Part shown: one piece after another, positions 55,732-63,747 of the stretch
Layout of the letters: each line of letters begins with the position of its first letter
How positions within the stretch are numbered: the first letter of the stretch is position 1
Origin: Cardiobacteriaceae bacterium TAE3-ERU3
GTDB lineage: Bacteria; Pseudomonadota; Gammaproteobacteria; Cardiobacteriales; Cardiobacteriaceae
NCBI GenBank assembly: GCA_019218315.1
Contig: JAHUUI010000001.1
Span: forward strand, 231,722-295,721
Direction: 5' to 3'
DNA: 64,000 bases
Notes under the pieces: model-generated
Told to the model about the DNA's origin: nothing
Databases searched by the model: none
The model's input: the letters and a program-made list of their open reading frames with translations, nothing else
Translations under genes and position numbers: made by a program

Positions 55732-55874
55732 ATTTATATATAGCTGTCGGTTACGACACATCAAAACAGGCCATTGTTCTTGTTTCTATTTTTTGGCTAC
55801 TCTGCGGCTGTTTTTCTGGAATTAGACTGTAAGTATCCTGTACACTCTGCCCATACCCATCCGTGGAATATCTC

Positions 55875-56855
55875 ATGGCAGAAAAAAGCAAACACTATCA
55901 GGACGACGGCCTGCATTCTTCACTAAAAACCATCCTTCATTCCAAGCGCGCCAATATCTTCTACCTTGAGCACTGCCGCGTGATGCAAAAAGACGGGCGT
56001 GTGCTCTACCTCACCGAAGCCCGCGATGAAAACCAGTTCTGGAACATCCCCATCGCCAACACCACCTGCATCCTGCTCGGCACTGGCACATCCATCACCC
56101 AAGCAGCAATGCGCATGCTCGCTGCTGCTGGCGTATTGGTTGGCTTTTGCGGCGGCGGAGGCACGCCGTTACTGATGGCAAACGAAGTTGAATGGCTGAC
56201 CCCGCAAAGCGAATACCGTCCCACCGAATACTTGCAAGGCTGGCTAAGCTGGTGGTTCGACGACAGCGCCCGCCTGCGCGCCGCCAAAGCGTTTCAGCAA
56301 GTGCGCATCGATTACCTGCGCAAAGTATGGACGCGCAGCCGCGACCTGAACAGCTACGGCTTTAACGCCAATGATGATCCCATCCGCAGCCTGCTCGACC
56401 GCCAGCAGCAAGACATCGACACGCAAACCGATGTCAGCCACCTGCTGCAATGCGAAGCACGCCTGACCAAACAACTCTACAAACACGCTGCAACCTGCAC
56501 CGGACACAGCGGCTTCACCCGCGACCACGACGGCCTCGACCTCGCCAACGGCTTTCTCAACCACGGCAACTACCTCGCCTACGGCCTCGGCGCGACCACT
56601 GCATGGGTACTCGGCATCCCACACGGCTTCGCGGTCATGCACGGCAAAACACGGCGCGGCGCGCTGGTCTTCGATATCGCCGACCTGATTAAAGACGCAC
56701 TCATCCTGCCCTACGCCTTTATCTGCGCCAACGAAGGCGACGACGAACAAACCTTTCGCCAGCAATGCCTCAACGCCTTCACCGAACACAAAGCACTCGA
56801 CGTGATGTTCGATACCGTCAAAAGCTTGGCATTGGCTAACAAGGAAGCACCGTAA
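55875..56855 (+). CDS. cas1: type I-F CRISPR-associated endonuclease Cas1
   Basis: Integrase that inserts new spacers, in I-F acting with the Cas2 part of Cas2-3. The 326-aa product starts at the ATG at 55875 (MAEKSKHYQDDGLHSSLKTIL). It has SKRANIFYLEHCRVMQKDGRVLYL (split) and the catalytic region EARLTKQLYKHA, HGFAVMHGKTRRGALVFDIADLIKD (split), with the conserved Glu, His and Asp residues. Length matches I-F Cas1. Its TAA overlaps the cas2-3 ATG (TAATG). First gene of the cas operon. Confidence 0.96.
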   Translation: MAEKSKHYQDDGLHSSLKTILHSKRANIFYLEHCRVMQKDGRVLYLTEARDENQFWNIPIANTTCILLGTGTSITQAAMRMLAAAGVLVGFCGGGGTPLLMANEVEWLTPQSEYRPTEYLQGWLSWWFDDSARLRAAKAFQQVRIDYLRKVWTRSRDLNSYGFNANDDPIRSLLDRQQQDIDTQTDVSHLLQCEARLTKQLYKHAATCTGHSGFTRDHDGLDLANGFLNHGNYLAYGLGATTAWVLGIPHGFAVMHGKTRRGALVFDIADLIKDALILPYAFICANEGDDEQTFRQQCLNAFTEHKALDVMFDTVKSLALANKEAP

Positions 56856-59800
56856 TGCTCGTCACCCTCATCAGCCAGTGCGACAAACGCGCCATCAAAC
56901 GCAGCCAAAAAATCCTCGACGCCTTTGCCAACCGCATCGGCGACCGCACATGGCAAACCGTCATCACTGAAGACGGCCTCACCACCCTGCACAAACAACT
57001 GCGCCGCACCGCAACCAAAAACACCGCCGTATCCTGCCACCTGATGCGCAGCCGCTCGCGCACCGACTTGTTGTGGATTGTCGGCAAACGCGAACGCTTC
57101 AACCACGTAGGCCACGTCCCCGTCAACCGTACAACCCACAACCTCGCGCACCGTGAATGGGAAAATCAGTGGCAATACGCCGCCCTACTGCAAATCGTCA
57201 GTACCCTCGCCGCCCTGTTTCACGACATCGGCAAATGCAACGACGGCTTCCAAGCCAAATTACGCGGGCAAAGTACCCTGCGCGGCGACCCATACCGCCA
57301 CGAATGGCTGTCCTTGCACCTGTTTGCCATCCTCATTGACGGCTGCGACAGTGACACCGCATGGCTCAAGCGCTGCACCGAACCCGAACAACACATCACC
57401 CAAGGTGCATGGACACTTGACCCAACCAACCACATCAACATCGCCACATGGCCACCGCTGGCACAATGGATTGGCTGGCTGATTGTCTCGCACCATCGCC
57501 TGCCCGGCTACGAATACACCTTTGCCCGCGACAACAATGCACGGCAACAATATCGCCACGACCCGCAGCAACTCTTGCGCCAAACCCTGCGCGACTATTA
57601 TCAGGACATCCGCGCTGCCGATTATTGGGTACGCAACCCCAATAGCCTCGGCCAGCCCGAATCTGCCGACTTTTGGCGCGGCAGCCACAACATCATGGCC
57701 AGCCGCGTATGGCAAAAGACCTTACGCCGCTGGGCGCAAAAAGCCCTCGACCATCCAACCCTGCTCACCATGATGGACGACTTACAACAACAGCAGCGCA
57801 GCATGGCCGACCCGTGGCTACTCTACCTGTCGCGCTTGGCGCTGATGGTCGGCGACCACAATTATTCCAGCCTCGCCTACGACGACCCACGCTGCCAACG
57901 TTATCAACCCAAGCAACCCTTACCGCTCACCGCCAACACCCTACCCAAAGGCGTACCCGTCAACCTGCGCAATGCGCGCAGCAACATCCGCCAAAGCCTC
58001 GAAGAGCATCTACTCGGCGTCGCCGCAATGACCGCTGATTTTGCACGGCTTCTGCCCCAACTCGGCGATGACCTGCCGCGCCTCAGCCGCCACAAAGCAC
58101 TAAACAAACCCACCGCGCATCCGCGCTTCAAATGGCAAAACAAAGCCTATGAACTCGCACAGCAACACCAGCAAAGCAGTACCGCACACGGCTTTTTCGG
58201 CATCAACATGGCCTCGACCGGCTGCGGCAAAACCATCGCCAACGCACGCATCATGTACGGCCTCGCCGACCCCAGGCACGGCGCACGCTTTACCATTGCC
58301 CTCGGCCTGCGCGTCCTCACCCTGCAAACCGGCCAAAGCCTGCGCCACCAGCTCAAACTCAACGATGAAAGCCTCGCCATCCTCGTCGGCGGACAAGCGA
58401 ATACCGCCTTATTCCACATCGACCAAAATGAAAACCACAACGGCAGTGAATCCGCAGATGAACCGGTTGACGGCTGGGTAGACGGCGACATCCTCGACGG
58501 CAGCGTCCACAGCGAACGCCTCGGTACGATTATCGCCAGCGACAAAGCCCGCGAATTACTCTTTGCCCCAATCGTCACCTGCACCATCGACCACCTCATC
58601 CAAGCCAGCGAAAACCAGCGCGGCGGCCGCCACATCGCCCCGCTGCTGCGCCTGCTATCCAGCGACCTCATCCTCGACGAACCCGACGACTTCGACCAAA
58701 ACGACCTGCCCGCCCTTGCACACCTCATTCACCTCGCTGGCATCATGGGCAGCCGTATTTTACTGTCCTCGGCTACGATGACCCCAGACATGCTGCAAGG
58801 TCTGTTCGACGCATACCACAGCGGCCGCCAATACTGGAACAACAGCCAAGGGCTCGCCGCAGCACAGCCGGTTTGCGCGTGGTTCGACGAATACAGCTGC
58901 CGCGCCGAACATTGCAGCGACAACAGTGCCTTTGCCCAAGCACACCAGCAATTCAGCAGCCAACGCGCCTCCCGCCTAGACCAAGCGCCAGTGCGCCGTA
59001 TCGCCGATATCCTGCCCATCACCAAACCAACCAGCAAACGCACCAAAAAATACTACCAAACCCTCGCCACACAACTGCTAGACGGCATTACCCGCCTGCA
59101 CCACGACCACCATCAAACCAGTCCGGACGGCAAAACCGTCAGCATCGGCCTCATGCGCATGGCAAACATCCGCCCTCTAAACCAAGTCGCGCTCGCACTG
59201 CACGGCAATGGAGACCTGCTACCCGATGACACTGCCCTGCACCTTTGCGTCTATCACGGACGGCAAATCCTCATCCTGCGCAACGACCTCGAACGCACTC
59301 TCGACCGCCTGCTCACTCGCAACCCAAAGCATCCCGAAGCCCTGTTCAGCCATCCAGAAATCCGCGAACGCCTGCAAAGCAGCAACGCACAGCATCATAT
59401 CTTTGTCGTACTGGCCACTGCAGTCGCTGAGATTGGAAGGGATCACGATTATGACTGGGCGCTGGCTGAACCCTCGTCAATGCGTTCCATCATCCAGCTT
59501 GCTGGGCGTGTGTGGCGGCACCGACCAGACAAAACCACTACCAAACCCAACATCCTCATCTGGCAGCACAACCACAAAGGTCTGTTAAATGGCGATATCG
59601 TCTTCACCAAACCCGGCTTTGAAGACAGCGAACACCGCCTATCAACCCACGACCTCAACCAACTGCTGCGTGACAACGAAAAGCAGCACCTCAATGCCGT
59701 ACCACGCATTATTCATAGCAGCGATACCAGTACCGACACCTTGAGCAATCTCGAACACCGCGTCATGCACGACCTGCTCAATAATCCCGAACACAATTAC

Positions 59801-60211
59801 GTCAACGCATGGTGGCGTAATCTTGATAACGCACAACGCGCCCTGTGCCACCTACCTGCCATCAGCCCATTCCGCCACCAACACGGCAAAGATGAAGACT
59901 GGCTGATGATTCCCAATGACGAAAGTTTTGACGTTTATTCACGCGAGCAAGTCCTGGAAAATGGCTTGAGCGCCAGCGACACCCACAATCTCACCATTCA
60001 CGCTGAGCCCATACCTGAACACAATAGCCGCATACAACCGTGGCTAGTGCAAGATCTCAACGCCAGCCTTGACCGCCTGCAACCGCACTACCCCAACCTG
60101 TCGCGCACCGCGCTTGCCATACGCTTTGCCAGCGTCAGCTTGCCGCAAAAAGAAGGCGAATGGCTATTTCACCCGTGGCTGGGTTTTCACCACAGTAAAG
60201 ACGATAGGTAA
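56855..60211 (+). CDS. cas3: type I-F Cas2-Cas3 fusion helicase-nuclease
   Basis: The 1118-aa fusion typical of subtype I-F. Residues about 1-95 are Cas2-like (MLVTLISQCDKRAIKRSQKI). An HD nuclease follows, with ALFHDIGKCNDGFQAKL near residue 125 and VSHHRLPGYEY. The SF2 helicase has Walker A MASTGCGKTIANAR near residue 456, the DEPD box LILDEPDDFD near 607, LLSSATMTP and the arginine-finger motif QLAGRVWRHRP. It degrades targets recruited by the Csy complex and acts with Cas1 in adaptation. All key motifs look intact. Confidence 0.96.
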   Translation: MLVTLISQCDKRAIKRSQKILDAFANRIGDRTWQTVITEDGLTTLHKQLRRTATKNTAVSCHLMRSRSRTDLLWIVGKRERFNHVGHVPVNRTTHNLAHREWENQWQYAALLQIVSTLAALFHDIGKCNDGFQAKLRGQSTLRGDPYRHEWLSLHLFAILIDGCDSDTAWLKRCTEPEQHITQGAWTLDPTNHINIATWPPLAQWIGWLIVSHHRLPGYEYTFARDNNARQQYRHDPQQLLRQTLRDYYQDIRAADYWVRNPNSLGQPESADFWRGSHNIMASRVWQKTLRRWAQKALDHPTLLTMMDDLQQQQRSMADPWLLYLSRLALMVGDHNYSSLAYDDPRCQRYQPKQPLPLTANTLPKGVPVNLRNARSNIRQSLEEHLLGVAAMTADFARLLPQLGDDLPRLSRHKALNKPTAHPRFKWQNKAYELAQQHQQSSTAHGFFGINMASTGCGKTIANARIMYGLADPRHGARFTIALGLRVLTLQTGQSLRHQLKLNDESLAILVGGQANTALFHIDQNENHNGSESADEPVDGWVDGDILDGSVHSERLGTIIASDKARELLFAPIVTCTIDHLIQASENQRGGRHIAPLLRLLSSDLILDEPDDFDQNDLPALAHLIHLAGIMGSRILLSSATMTPDMLQGLFDAYHSGRQYWNNSQGLAAAQPVCAWFDEYSCRAEHCSDNSAFAQAHQQFSSQRASRLDQAPVRRIADILPITKPTSKRTKKYYQTLATQLLDGITRLHHDHHQTSPDGKTVSIGLMRMANIRPLNQVALALHGNGDLLPDDTALHLCVYHGRQILILRNDLERTLDRLLTRNPKHPEALFSHPEIRERLQSSNAQHHIFVVLATAVAEIGRDHDYDWALAEPSSMRSIIQLAGRVWRHRPDKTTTKPNILIWQHNHKGLLNGDIVFTKPGFEDSEHRLSTHDLNQLLRDNEKQHLNAVPRIIHSSDTSTDTLSNLEHRVMHDLLNNPEHNYVNAWWRNLDNAQRALCHLPAISPFRHQHGKDEDWLMIPNDESFDVYSREQVLENGLSASDTHNLTIHAEPIPEHNSRIQPWLVQDLNASLDRLQPHYPNLSRTALAIRFASVSLPQKEGEWLFHPWLGFHHSKDDR

Positions 60212-60217
60212 GTTGAA

Positions 60218-60293
60218 TTAAAAAGCCGCCTGTGCGGCGGCGAACAATCTACCTAGTGGCAGTATTTTCTAAGCCAGATATATCTGGAAAACG
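60218..60293 (-). ncRNA. degenerate I-F mini-CRISPR, candidate Cas-regulating guide RNA (CreR/CreA-like)
   Basis: On the minus strand, a repeat-like 28-mer (60266-60293) has a 5-bp stem CCAGA-TATA-TCTGG directly followed by CTTAGAAA, the standard I-F crRNA 5' handle. A 20-nt spacer follows (60246-60265, ATACTGCCACTAGGTAGATT). A second repeat-like 28-mer (60218-60245) begins GTTCGCCGCCGCACAGGCGGC. Its CCGCC/GGCGG stem matches I-F repeats with a compensated base pair. Cas6f cleavage after each stem would yield a 48-nt guide (8+20+20). The spacer pairs with the csy promoter (see 60372-60424). Only two repeat-like units exist, so this is not an ordinary array. Confidence 0.78.
60219..60241 (-). 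terminator. intrinsic terminator made from the second repeat-like unit
   Basis: Minus strand: GCCGCC-GCACA-GGCGGC hairpin followed by TTTTT then AA. The last eight bases of the repeat (CTTAGAAA in intact repeats) are changed to CTTTTTAA, turning the crRNA stem-loop into a Rho-independent terminator. Confidence 0.7.
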
Positions 60294-60294
60294 A

Positions 60295-60303
60295 ATTCTA
60301 GCA
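60295..60303 (-). promoter_or_regulatory. candidate extended -10 promoter of the guide RNA
   Basis: Minus strand: TGC-TAGAAT, an extended -10 element. Transcription would begin around 60288, at the stem of the first repeat-like unit, giving an RNA with almost no leader. No good -35 box is seen, as is common with extended -10 promoters. Confidence 0.45.
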
Positions 60304-60371
60304 TTCATTTTCTTTTGAGTTGGGTACTAGAATCACAAGATAGCTACAACTTCAATTAATATAAAAATTTC

Positions 60372-60424
60372 AATCTACCTAGAAGTAGTATGGAGTTGAC
60401 AAGCTAATTTTACTTATCTAGACT
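60372..60424 (+). promoter_or_regulatory. csy1 promoter overlapped by a partial protospacer for the guide RNA
   Basis: TTGACA (60396-60401), 17 bp, TAGACT (60419-60424) lie 30 bp before csy1. Immediately upstream, 60372-60391 (AATCTACCTAGAAGTAGTAT) matches the guide spacer at 17 of 20 positions. On the matching (minus) strand it is preceded by CC (60392-60393), the I-F PAM. From the PAM, positions 1-5 match, 6 mismatches, 7 matches, 8-9 mismatch, 10-20 match. A Csy complex bound here would abut the -35 box. Confidence 0.75.
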
Positions 60425-60453: not shown

Positions 60454-61815
60454 ATGACAGACATCAACGCCGATACCTTCCGCCAAGCCGTCACTGCTTT
60501 CCTGCAAGCACAATTCGAGAAAAAATCCGACAAGCAACACAAAGCACTGGATAAAGCCCGCGAGGCTGGCGACAGCGCTGCAATTGCCAATCTTGAAGCT
60601 GAAATCGCCGATATCCGCGATAAATACGCCCGTGATAACTGGATGGATGAAGCTGCCAACCGCCTCGCCAAGCAACTTAATTTTGGCACGCATATATCCA
60701 AAGGTATTCATCCCGACGCCAAAGGGGACAACGTCACGTTCAGTAACCCACCCGACTTACCCGACACCCTGATTGGCTCACAAACCATCGGTGATTTAAT
60801 GCTCGATGCCAACGGCAATGCCGCTGCCCTGCCGCTCGCAGCCTTTTTCGATTGGCCGGTCACCGACAGCTTACACATCCGCGATGTCATCCAGCAGCAT
60901 CCCGAACTCGCCCAACCAGCGCTTGCCGCTGATCAGCAAACCGCAGCCGCCTACTTGCAAATTTTCCAAACCACGTTGTCTGGCGACATGACCGCCCCAC
61001 AAACCCACGAGCGCAACAAACAAATCCTGTGGCCGGTTGGCAGTCTCGACGAAGACGCTTACCACTGCCTCGTGCCGCTCTACCCGTCTGCACTTACCCA
61101 CCACGTCAAAAACACCCTCGACGACCTTCGCTGGAGCGACACCAACAAAACCGCACGTAGCAACCGCTACAAAGCCAACGCCGAACAGCAGCCCTATGTC
61201 ACCCTGGATAACCTCGCCGTACTGCAACTTGGAGGCGCCAAACCACAGAACATCAGCCAACTGATGAGCAAACAGGGCGGGCGTAATTACCTGCTGCCAT
61301 CCCTACCGCCAACCTATCATAGCGACGGTTATCCTGGTCTAACCCGCAACGGCACCACCTTATTTAACAAATCTCTGTATCGCCATTGTTCGCTACTATT
61401 TTGCGGCTTAAGCGAAGTAGTAAAAAACCCGCGCAATAATGTCGATGTGCGTGAATACCGTACCAAACTGGTTGAAAAACTCGTCCTGCGCGTCCTTGAT
61501 GTTGCCAAGCATCACCGCAACGACCATCCCGCCGGCTGGACACGCCAATTCGAGGAACTCGATGAAATGCAGGTCTTTTGGCTCGATCCGCACCGTGGCA
61601 CACTGGATGGCGAAAGTGACTACGAGAACCGCGACGAAGAAGACTGGCGAACCCCAATCAAAAAGGATTTTGCCGCATGGGCGGTTGCACGACTGCAAAC
61701 TCTGTGCAAAGAACAGGCACAGGATTTTGCCGATGCTGAAATCCGTTACTGGCGCAAATTCTTTATCGATGGTATCAACACATTGGCACGTCAAAATGAG
61801 GAGGTCTGGACATGA
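60454..61815 (+). CDS. cas8f: type I-F Csy complex large subunit Csy1 (Cas8f)
   Basis: Large subunit of the Csy surveillance complex, responsible with Cas5f for PAM reading and binding the crRNA 5' handle. The 453-aa protein begins MTDINADTFRQAVTAFLQAQ. It has an early Lys-rich helical region, NFGTHISKGIHPDAKGDN and the C-terminal QFEELDEMQVFWLDPHRG and EIRYWRKFFIDGIN, typical of Csy1. Preceded by its own promoter candidate and overlapping csy2 (ATGA). Confidence 0.94.
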   Translation: MTDINADTFRQAVTAFLQAQFEKKSDKQHKALDKAREAGDSAAIANLEAEIADIRDKYARDNWMDEAANRLAKQLNFGTHISKGIHPDAKGDNVTFSNPPDLPDTLIGSQTIGDLMLDANGNAAALPLAAFFDWPVTDSLHIRDVIQQHPELAQPALAADQQTAAAYLQIFQTTLSGDMTAPQTHERNKQILWPVGSLDEDAYHCLVPLYPSALTHHVKNTLDDLRWSDTNKTARSNRYKANAEQQPYVTLDNLAVLQLGGAKPQNISQLMSKQGGRNYLLPSLPPTYHSDGYPGLTRNGTTLFNKSLYRHCSLLFCGLSEVVKNPRNNVDVREYRTKLVEKLVLRVLDVAKHHRNDHPAGWTRQFEELDEMQVFWLDPHRGTLDGESDYENRDEEDWRTPIKKDFAAWAVARLQTLCKEQAQDFADAEIRYWRKFFIDGINTLARQNEEVWT

Positions 61816-62753
61816 AGCAACCACTACAAGGCTATTTGCTGCTCGACAGCATCCACATTACCTATGCCAACGCCGTATCCAGCCCCTTAACCTATGGTTT
61901 TCCTGCCATCACTGGATTTCTCGGTGCGATGCACGCACTAAACCGCAAAACCCGCCAACACCCGGCATTGGCAAATATCACTTTTGACGGCATCGCCGTG
62001 GCCTGCCATGAGCACCACATACTCACTAACCAACGCAGTCCCTACGCCGACCACACTTTCAACCAAACCCGTAACCCCATCCTCAAATCAGGCAAAACCG
62101 CCGCCATCGTCGAAGAAGGAAAATGCCACATCACCGTATCACTGGTGATTGCCATTGCCGCCGATAGCGACCCCGACGACCATACGCGTAATGAACTCAT
62201 CAACTGCGTACGCCAACGCCTGTGGCAACAGCGTATCGCTGGCGGCAGCATCACCAGCGACCCGCAGCAAACCCGTATCGAATACATTCCCGCAGCCAAA
62301 GCCGACACCATACCAGTCGAACTACTGCCCGCTTATCTACTCATGGACGCCGGTAATGACCTCGCCGACATCACCGCTGAATTGCGCAAAAAGCACCCAC
62401 AAACTACCCCGCTTGATGCCCTGATTGATGTTTGTACCCTGCACCACATCCCCGAAAGCAACGGTAAACATACTAAATGGCATGTACAAACCGCCAAGTC
62501 CGGACGCGGCTGGCTAGTACCAATTCCGATTGGCTATCAAGGTATCGCACCACTATTTGCCGCAGGCACACTTGGCAACGCCCGCAACCCCGACTACCCC
62601 GCGCAATATGTCGAAGCTATCTACACACTCGGCAAATGGCTGTTCCCCTACCGTCTGAAAGACAACGACATCAAAAATGCCCTGTGGCATTACCACTACG
62701 ACCGCGAAAACGACCGCTACCTCGCCACCCAAACACCCAACAAGGAGCATTAA
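61812..62753 (+). CDS. cas5f: type I-F Csy complex subunit Csy2 (Cas5f)
   Basis: The 313-aa protein starts MKQPLQGYLLLDSIHITYANA and has the Csy2 blocks YGFPAITGFLGAMHALNRK and GWLVPIPIGYQGIAPLFAAG. It forms the tail heterodimer with Csy1 and holds the crRNA 5' handle. Slightly shorter than some homologues. Overlaps csy1 by 4 bp; csy3 starts one base after its stop codon. Confidence 0.94.
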   Translation: MKQPLQGYLLLDSIHITYANAVSSPLTYGFPAITGFLGAMHALNRKTRQHPALANITFDGIAVACHEHHILTNQRSPYADHTFNQTRNPILKSGKTAAIVEEGKCHITVSLVIAIAADSDPDDHTRNELINCVRQRLWQQRIAGGSITSDPQQTRIEYIPAAKADTIPVELLPAYLLMDAGNDLADITAELRKKHPQTTPLDALIDVCTLHHIPESNGKHTKWHVQTAKSGRGWLVPIPIGYQGIAPLFAAGTLGNARNPDYPAQYVEAIYTLGKWLFPYRLKDNDIKNALWHYHYDRENDRYLATQTPNKEH

Positions 62754-62754
62754 C

Positions 62755-63747
62755 ATGACCCTCAAAACCGCATCCGTACTCGCCTTTGAAAAAAACCTCG
62801 ACTGCTCGGACGGCTTCTTCTGGCAATACGACAGTGCTAAGCAAGACCAGCCTGCAACACCGGTTGGCATCAGCGAAAAATCCGTACGCGGCACCATCAG
62901 CAATCGCCTCAAAAACGCCATTGCCAACGATCCGCTAAAACTCGACGCTGAAATCCAGAAGCCCAACCTGCAAACCATCGACAACGCAGCACTCGATGAG
63001 GACAAAGATACCCTATTGGTCAAATGGAGCTGCAAAGTCCTGCCCTTTAGCGGTCAGCCCTGCGCCTGCAATAATCAGGACTACCAAACAGCTCTGATGG
63101 AGCAAGTACAAAGCTACATCGACGAACACGGCTTTGCCGAACTCGCCAAACGCTATGCTATCAACATCGCCAATGCCCGTTGGATGTGGCGCAACCGCGT
63201 CGGCGCCGAGCACGTCGAAGTCCGTGTACGCTGCGGGAAAGAAGAACTCATCTTCAAAGATGGAAAACAATACAACATCCAGCACTTCGACCACAGCGAC
63301 ACACAACTCACCCCCCTTGCGCAGTGGATTGCCGATGGTCTCGCCGACAAACAATTCACCATCCTCTATATCGAAGCGCACGCCAAAGTCGGTTACGGAC
63401 AGCAAGTCTTCCCCTCACAAGAACTCGTCCTCGACACCGGCAACCGCAAAAGCAAAGTCCTCTACCAAATCGACGGTAAAGCTGGCATGCACGCACAAAA
63501 AATCGGCAACGCCCTGCGCACCATCGACACTTGGTATCCCGATGCTGAATACCCAATTGCCGTCGAACCCTATGGCGCAGTCACCAGCATGGGGCAAGCC
63601 TTCCGCCAGCCCAAAGCCAAGCAGGATTTTTACAGCCTGTTCGACAAATGGATCACCAAAGGCGAAAAGCCCGGTGTCGAGCAGCAGCACTACGTCATCG
63701 CCGTACTTATCCGCGGCGGTGTCTTTGGTGAAAGTGGGAAAGAATAA
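62755..63747 (+). CDS. cas7f: type I-F Csy complex backbone subunit Csy3 (Cas7f)
   Basis: The 330-aa backbone subunit polymerises along the crRNA spacer, one per 6 nt. The start is the ATG at 62755 (MTLKTASVLAFEKNLDCSDGF) with AAGGAG upstream. It has the Csy3 segments VGISEKSVRGTISNRLKNA and ANARWMWRNRVGAEHVEVRV, and AVTSMGQAFRQP near the end. Its TAA overlaps the csy4 ATG (TAATG). Confidence 0.95.
   Translation: MTLKTASVLAFEKNLDCSDGFFWQYDSAKQDQPATPVGISEKSVRGTISNRLKNAIANDPLKLDAEIQKPNLQTIDNAALDEDKDTLLVKWSCKVLPFSGQPCACNNQDYQTALMEQVQSYIDEHGFAELAKRYAINIANARWMWRNRVGAEHVEVRVRCGKEELIFKDGKQYNIQHFDHSDTQLTPLAQWIADGLADKQFTILYIEAHAKVGYGQQVFPSQELVLDTGNRKSKVLYQIDGKAGMHAQKIGNALRTIDTWYPDAEYPIAVEPYGAVTSMGQAFRQPKAKQDFYSLFDKWITKGEKPGVEQQHYVIAVLIRGGVFGESGKE

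Follow-up and report, generated by a model that had tools for sequence, protein, structure and literature searches.

The 64,000-nt stretch of DNA from Cardiobacteriaceae bacterium TAE3-ERU3 that we analyzed (the window) contains a type I-F CRISPR-Cas locus that runs from cas1 through cas2-3, csy1, csy2 and csy3 into the first part of csy4. Two degenerate I-F repeats on the minus strand (60293 to 60218) of the 242-bp gap that separates cas2-3 from csy1 flank a 20-nt spacer that closely resembles a site next to the predicted csy1 promoter, and the probable function of this mini-CRISPR unit is the subject of our analysis. The upstream gene, cas2-3 (Cas3f; 56855–60211, plus strand; TIGR02562, 1088 bits), ends 6 bp short of the unit's 3' end, and csy1 (cas8f; 60454–61815, plus strand, with its ATG at 60454; TIGR02564, 332 bits) leads the csy1-csy2-csy3-csy4 effector operon. 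cas1 occupies 55863–56855 (NCBIfam Cas1f), csy2 and csy3 span 61812–63747 on the plus strand (TIGR02565 and TIGR02566), and csy4 starts at 63747, extends beyond the window end and is intact in the genome (TIGR02563, 130.5 bits on L015:473-1120). The Cas1f, Cas3f and Csy1–3 proteins encoded in the window match their NCBIfam models far above the cut-offs. Downstream, the genome also has several long arrays whose repeat is GTTCACCGCCGCACAGGCGGCTTAGAAA or one of two variants of it (G000:C1:296476-298183, 320852-322500 and 346353-346481 for arrays with the three variants). With cas1, cas2-3 and csy1 to csy4 complete and several long arrays in place, this genome has the I-F machinery.

The upstream repeat of the unit, psi-R1 (CGTTTTCCAGATATATCTGG-CTTAGAAA; 60266–60293, minus strand), contains a perfect 5-bp hairpin, CCAGA-TATA-TCTGG, that ends at the Csy4 cut position; the 8 nt after it are the exact I-F handle CTTAGAAA, which is common to 31 of the 36 units surveyed below. 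Next come the spacer-like guide psi-S (ATACTGCCACTAGGTAGATT; 60246–60265, minus strand) and the downstream repeat psi-R2 (GTTCGCCGCCGCACAGGCGGCTTTTTAA; 60218–60245, minus strand). Alignment with the array repeat GTTCACCGCCGCACAGGCGGCTTAGAAA, a check proposed in a preliminary description of this DNA, showed that psi-R2 is identical at 24 of 28 positions, including the entire stem, and differs only at position 5 and at three handle bases, whereas psi-R1 is only ~50% identical. psi-R2 has three mismatches to the degenerate repeat pattern, which accepts either base at repeat position 5, and scores 27.2 bits (E 0.013) against Rfam CRISPR-DR4, under the gathering score; the array closest to it is the one at 320852, not the csy4-adjacent one. 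Its tail is altered from CTTAGAAA to CTTTTTAA and scans as a minus-strand intrinsic terminator. The preliminary description had placed both repeats and the spacer correctly to the base, had recognized the handle of psi-R1, and was right that the 5-bp stem of psi-R2 is kept; the compensated pair that it saw in this stem exists only in comparison with repeats of other species and is absent relative to the genome's own arrays, because the stem of psi-R2 is identical to that of GTTCACCGCCGCACAGGCGGCTTAGAAA. The 86-nt RNA of the unit is predicted to fold into the two expected hairpins plus one within the spacer (z-score −3.5). Based on the Csy4 cut sites, a mature guide RNA of 48 nt is predicted at 60226–60273 on the minus strand, with an 8-nt handle, a 20-nt spacer and a 20-nt 3' handle, the same segment lengths as in the sequenced CreA RNA of Acinetobacter WCHA45 (PMC10097628).

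On its minus strand (60391-60372), the site 60372–60391 (ATACTACTTCTAGGTAGATT) matches the spacer at 17 of 20 positions, with mismatches only at positions 6, 8 and 9 and pairing at 1–5, 7 and 10–20. A protospacer-adjacent motif (PAM) CC, read as GG on the plus strand, lies 5' of this target at 60392–60393, on the correct strand and 2 bp from the −35 hexamer of the predicted sigma-70 promoter of csy1 (TTGACA-17-TAGACT; 60396–60424, plus strand, with TTGACA at 60396–60401 and TAGACT at 60419–60424). The match, the PAM and the abutment on TTGACA are thus as first described. In 200,000 Markov shuffles, a match of at least 17/20 with a CC PAM elsewhere in the gap was found once (~5e-6). With up to three mismatches allowed, this site is the only PAM-flanked match of the spacer in the genome; the other match falls within the unit, where AA at the PAM site keeps the unit from being its own target. 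The csy1 ATG lies 60 nt beyond the PAM and ~22 nt beyond the predicted transcription start, and neither interval contains a start codon. The first gene behind the targeted promoter is therefore the cas effector gene csy1 and not a toxin. The unit does not look like an ordinary immunity array, given the spacer of 20 nt rather than 32 nt, the unequal repeats, the target in the unit's own genome and the absence of an exact spacer match among 2.9 million viral contigs; no relative of Csy1 was found in viral contigs.

The preliminary description had named independent variation of spacer and promoter target in related genomes as a finding that would speak against it. We collected 140 csy1 upstream regions, 132 of them distinct, from the same order, from sampled members of the class, from in-depth coverage of one large order and from named genome contigs, the contigs being searched with a profile built on an alignment of four Csy1 proteins, and scanned each for a hairpin with handle followed by a 20-nt spacer with a CC-flanked partner inside the same region. 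Such a unit is present in 36 of the 132 distinct regions, the window included, each with its own matching spacer-target pair. Among 2000 shuffled regions passed through a filter on core mismatches, none had a unit at two or fewer core mismatches and six had one at three. Because this filter is biased toward mismatches at positions 6, 12 and 18, the mismatch profile was redone with a position-blind filter (six or fewer mismatches; 36/132 regions versus 32/2640 shuffled ones), and the pattern held. Two position-blind matches absent from the filtered set (L053 and L132) were excluded as likely due to chance, and four weak matches (L020, L028, L041 and L078) were excluded for lacking a hairpin ahead of the handle.

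Spacer and target are on average identical at 15.8 of 20 positions in own pairs and at 7.6 of 20 in mixed pairs. Between homologous loci, two-sided, compensatory changes occur at positions 2, 3, 4, 5, 7, 8, 9, 11 and 13, and one-sided changes at positions 16–17, plus 8 and 10 in one pair. These comparisons indicate that spacer and target evolve together, a conclusion that holds for the class and does not come from a second copy of the window's unit. Counted position-blind over the 36 units, mismatches number zero at positions 1–5, 25 at position 6, 19 at position 12 and 23 at position 18; mismatches at position 8 or 9 are present in other natural units and rare. CC is the PAM dinucleotide at 30 loci, and any other dinucleotide occurs at four or fewer (0–4). 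In the structures of type I effectors such as Cascade and the Csy complex, every sixth base of the guide is flipped out, and the mismatch profile is the pattern expected of a Csy complex reading DNA.

The layout also recurs. Thirty-two units have their target oriented as in the window, and in 25 of them a TTGACA-like −35 element starts 0–2 nt past the PAM; of all GG dinucleotides in the same regions, 18.6% are so placed. In 22 of these 32, the window included, csy1 starts 57–81 nt beyond the PAM, which leaves space for a leader and none for another gene or a toxin; the earlier statement that a separate toxin gene is unlikely thus holds for the window and extends to this group. In 12 of the 36 units, the target and csy1 are separated by 100–270 nt, some with small open reading frames (ORFs), and these may be addiction modules. 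Guide lengths cluster at 14, 20, 26 and 32 nt in 33 of the 36 units (Rayleigh test, period 6, p = 8e-6; p = 0.05 once related loci are coarsely removed), as expected if guides shorten by whole Cas7f footprints of one subunit each. We tentatively raise the possibility that type I-F has its own widespread class of autorepressors, in which the PAM is docked on the −35 element of the csy1 promoter ~60 nt before csy1 and guides are cut in whole Cas7f steps, so that the regulatory Csy complex would be a smaller, non-cutting form of the complex used in immunity.

Several individual loci in the survey stand out. Related leaders of ~130 nt separate csy1 from the repressed promoter in L051 (G248) and L130 (G505) and are candidates for a creT-type RNA. 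Between target promoter and csy1, L045 (G170) and L056 (G215) have related ORFs of 63 and 58 aa (39% identity over 33 aa) without an NCBIfam match, candidates for the protein toxin of a CrePA-like module, and L021 (G017) has an unrelated hydrophobic ORF of 55 aa in the same place. In L022 and L024 (G029 and G026), a solo repeat-like hairpin, CTCTGCTGAAAAAGCAGCTTAGCGG, stands directly ahead of TTGACA upstream of csy1 with no second repeat; it may be a remnant or a control element bound by Csy4. In the cas3-csy1 gap of L063 (Psychrobacter urativorans), the 20-nt guide is preceded by one more repeat and by a spacer close to canonical length, a layout resembling an intermediate between array and mini-CRISPR. 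In L055 (G349), csy1 has five internal stops, yet guide and target have zero core mismatches.

Effector self-repression is known from a class 2 system, in which the long form of the SpyCas9 tracrRNA (tracr-L) serves as a shortened natural guide with which the effector represses its own operon, and anti-CRISPRs derepress it. Our reading of the window shares with tracr-L self-repression by a short natural guide and relief by anti-CRISPRs; tracr-L differs in that its guide comes from the tracrRNA, without a repeat-spacer-repeat unit. For type I systems, RNAs of this kind were reportedly described as CreR, cas-regulating RNAs, by Liu et al. (2023, Cell Host Microbe). According to the reviews PMC13131331 and PMC12737573, a CreR guide from a mini-CRISPR with degenerate repeats is partly complementary to a cas promoter, through which it represses the genes of the effector itself, and the repression is relieved by competition from CRISPR RNAs (crRNAs) and by anti-CRISPRs; SpyCas9 autorepression is also mentioned in PMC13131331. 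The unit in the window resembles CreR in its degenerate repeats related to those of the host, its partial, PAM-flanked pairing with a cas promoter and its lack of a toxin, so that, by anatomy, target and absence of a toxin, the sequence has the features of CreR that can be tested in it. The review PMC13131331 names CreR autorepression in types I-B, I-E and V-A, with I-F not among them, although the original description may predict I-F. Because the testable features of CreR are present and the review names these three types, we class the unit as a putative CreR-type unit of type I-F.

Among published I-F systems, the closest relative is CreTA of Acinetobacter sp. WCHA45, LoGeW2-3 and ANC3789 (Wang et al. 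2023, PMC10097628). There, reporters, small-RNA sequencing and a Northern blot documented a CreA with a 20-nt guide and 17 pairs, position 6 being unpaired, that loads the Csy complex and represses about sevenfold, with Cas3 dispensable (PMC10097628). CreTA is like the unit in the window in lying in the cas3-csy1 gap, divergent from csy1, with a diverged psi-R1 and a conserved psi-R2, and in its 20-nt guide, 17/20 pairing, unpaired position 6 and CC PAM; it works through the Csy complex but not Cas3, as the unit in the window would. The two differ in that the Acinetobacter gap is ~400 bp long and what the target controls there is a toxic RNA that has a 33-bp mini-ORF, whereas the gap of 242 bp in the window has no ORF and no room for such an RNA between promoter and csy1; and in that the Acinetobacter target lies downstream of the promoter start site, whereas that of the window adjoins the −35 element of a promoter whose first gene is csy1.

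Based on these findings, we consider it very probable that the unit is a CreR-type autorepressor of type I-F that lets the Csy complex lower its own production, as the preliminary description had suggested and as the covariation and the layout support. We infer the expression and processing of the guide, the repression and its relief as follows. A short minus-strand RNA from 60293 to 60218 would be cut by Csy4 to yield a crRNA-like guide of ~48 nt that would be loaded into the Csy complex and steer it to the PAM-flanked 20-bp site at 60372–60391. The PAM side of the bound complex would cover the −35 element of the csy1 promoter, and we propose that RNA polymerase would therefore be excluded and transcription of csy1-csy4 would drop. 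The pairing would be too short and too imperfect to recruit Cas2-3, and the chromosome would for this reason remain uncut. When Csy proteins are occupied by normal crRNAs, or blocked by an anti-CRISPR, repression would be lifted and more Csy protein would be made. This mechanism is a small step, because the Acinetobacter guide of the same type represses via the same complex and the promoter here is that of csy1.

A number of observations weigh against this autorepressor reading. Positions 8 and 9 are both unpaired in the window guide, and single mutations at spacer position 8 or 9 abolished the function of Acinetobacter CreA (PMC10097628). psi-R1, with a new stem sequence, a 4-nt loop and its low identity to the array repeat, is among the most diverged of the surveyed set, and this divergence makes cutting by Csy4 uncertain. 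A promoter scan found no clear small-RNA promoter, the candidates being indistinguishable from shuffled sequence. The unit is absent from the congener G001 and from two other family members and, because this is the one congener examined, the window's own unit has no close pair. The unpaired positions, the diverged psi-R1 and the congener without a unit would also be expected of a decayed relic, a once-working creR with a drifting guide or drifting repeats and no remaining repression. Drift would, however, be expected to break first what is still intact here, namely pairing at positions 1–5, 7 and 10–20, a psi-R2 stem equal to that of working arrays, an exact handle and PAM, and spacings from PAM to −35 and to csy1 as in other units, and we regard a relic as improbable. 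An addiction module of the CreTA/CrePA type, in which a toxic RNA or peptide is held down by the guide and cells that lose the Csy complex die, has a precedent in the published unit that occupies the same gap in Acinetobacter and represses the toxic RNA creT (PMC10097628), and the 12 units with a long target-csy1 distance, some with small ORFs (those of L045 and L056 being related), fit such a module; for the window, with csy1 as the promoter's first gene and a predicted leader as short as described, we think it more improbable still. That a minus-strand intrinsic terminator, a hairpin and a 17/20 match came together by coincidence is negligibly probable, since, although psi-R2 scans as a terminator and the 8-nt handle by itself should turn up about once in a window, the rarity of the match among shuffles and the likeness of psi-R2 to the array repeat oppose it and recurrence with covariation across the survey practically refutes it.

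Relative to the types named in PMC13131331, what appears to be new here is a CreR-type unit in type I-F, with some 22 csy1-proximal examples. The same arrangement, with a different guide-target pair each time, is found in dozens of other bacteria, and the survey provides a simple rule for locating such switches (36 cases, of which 22 are csy1-proximal) and constitutes a natural mutational record of guide positions, in which 1–5 are never mismatched and 6, 12 and 18 are free. Many of the best-studied anti-CRISPR proteins act on type I-F. If our reading is true, Csy output would rise automatically in cells in which a phage anti-CRISPR blocks the Csy complex.
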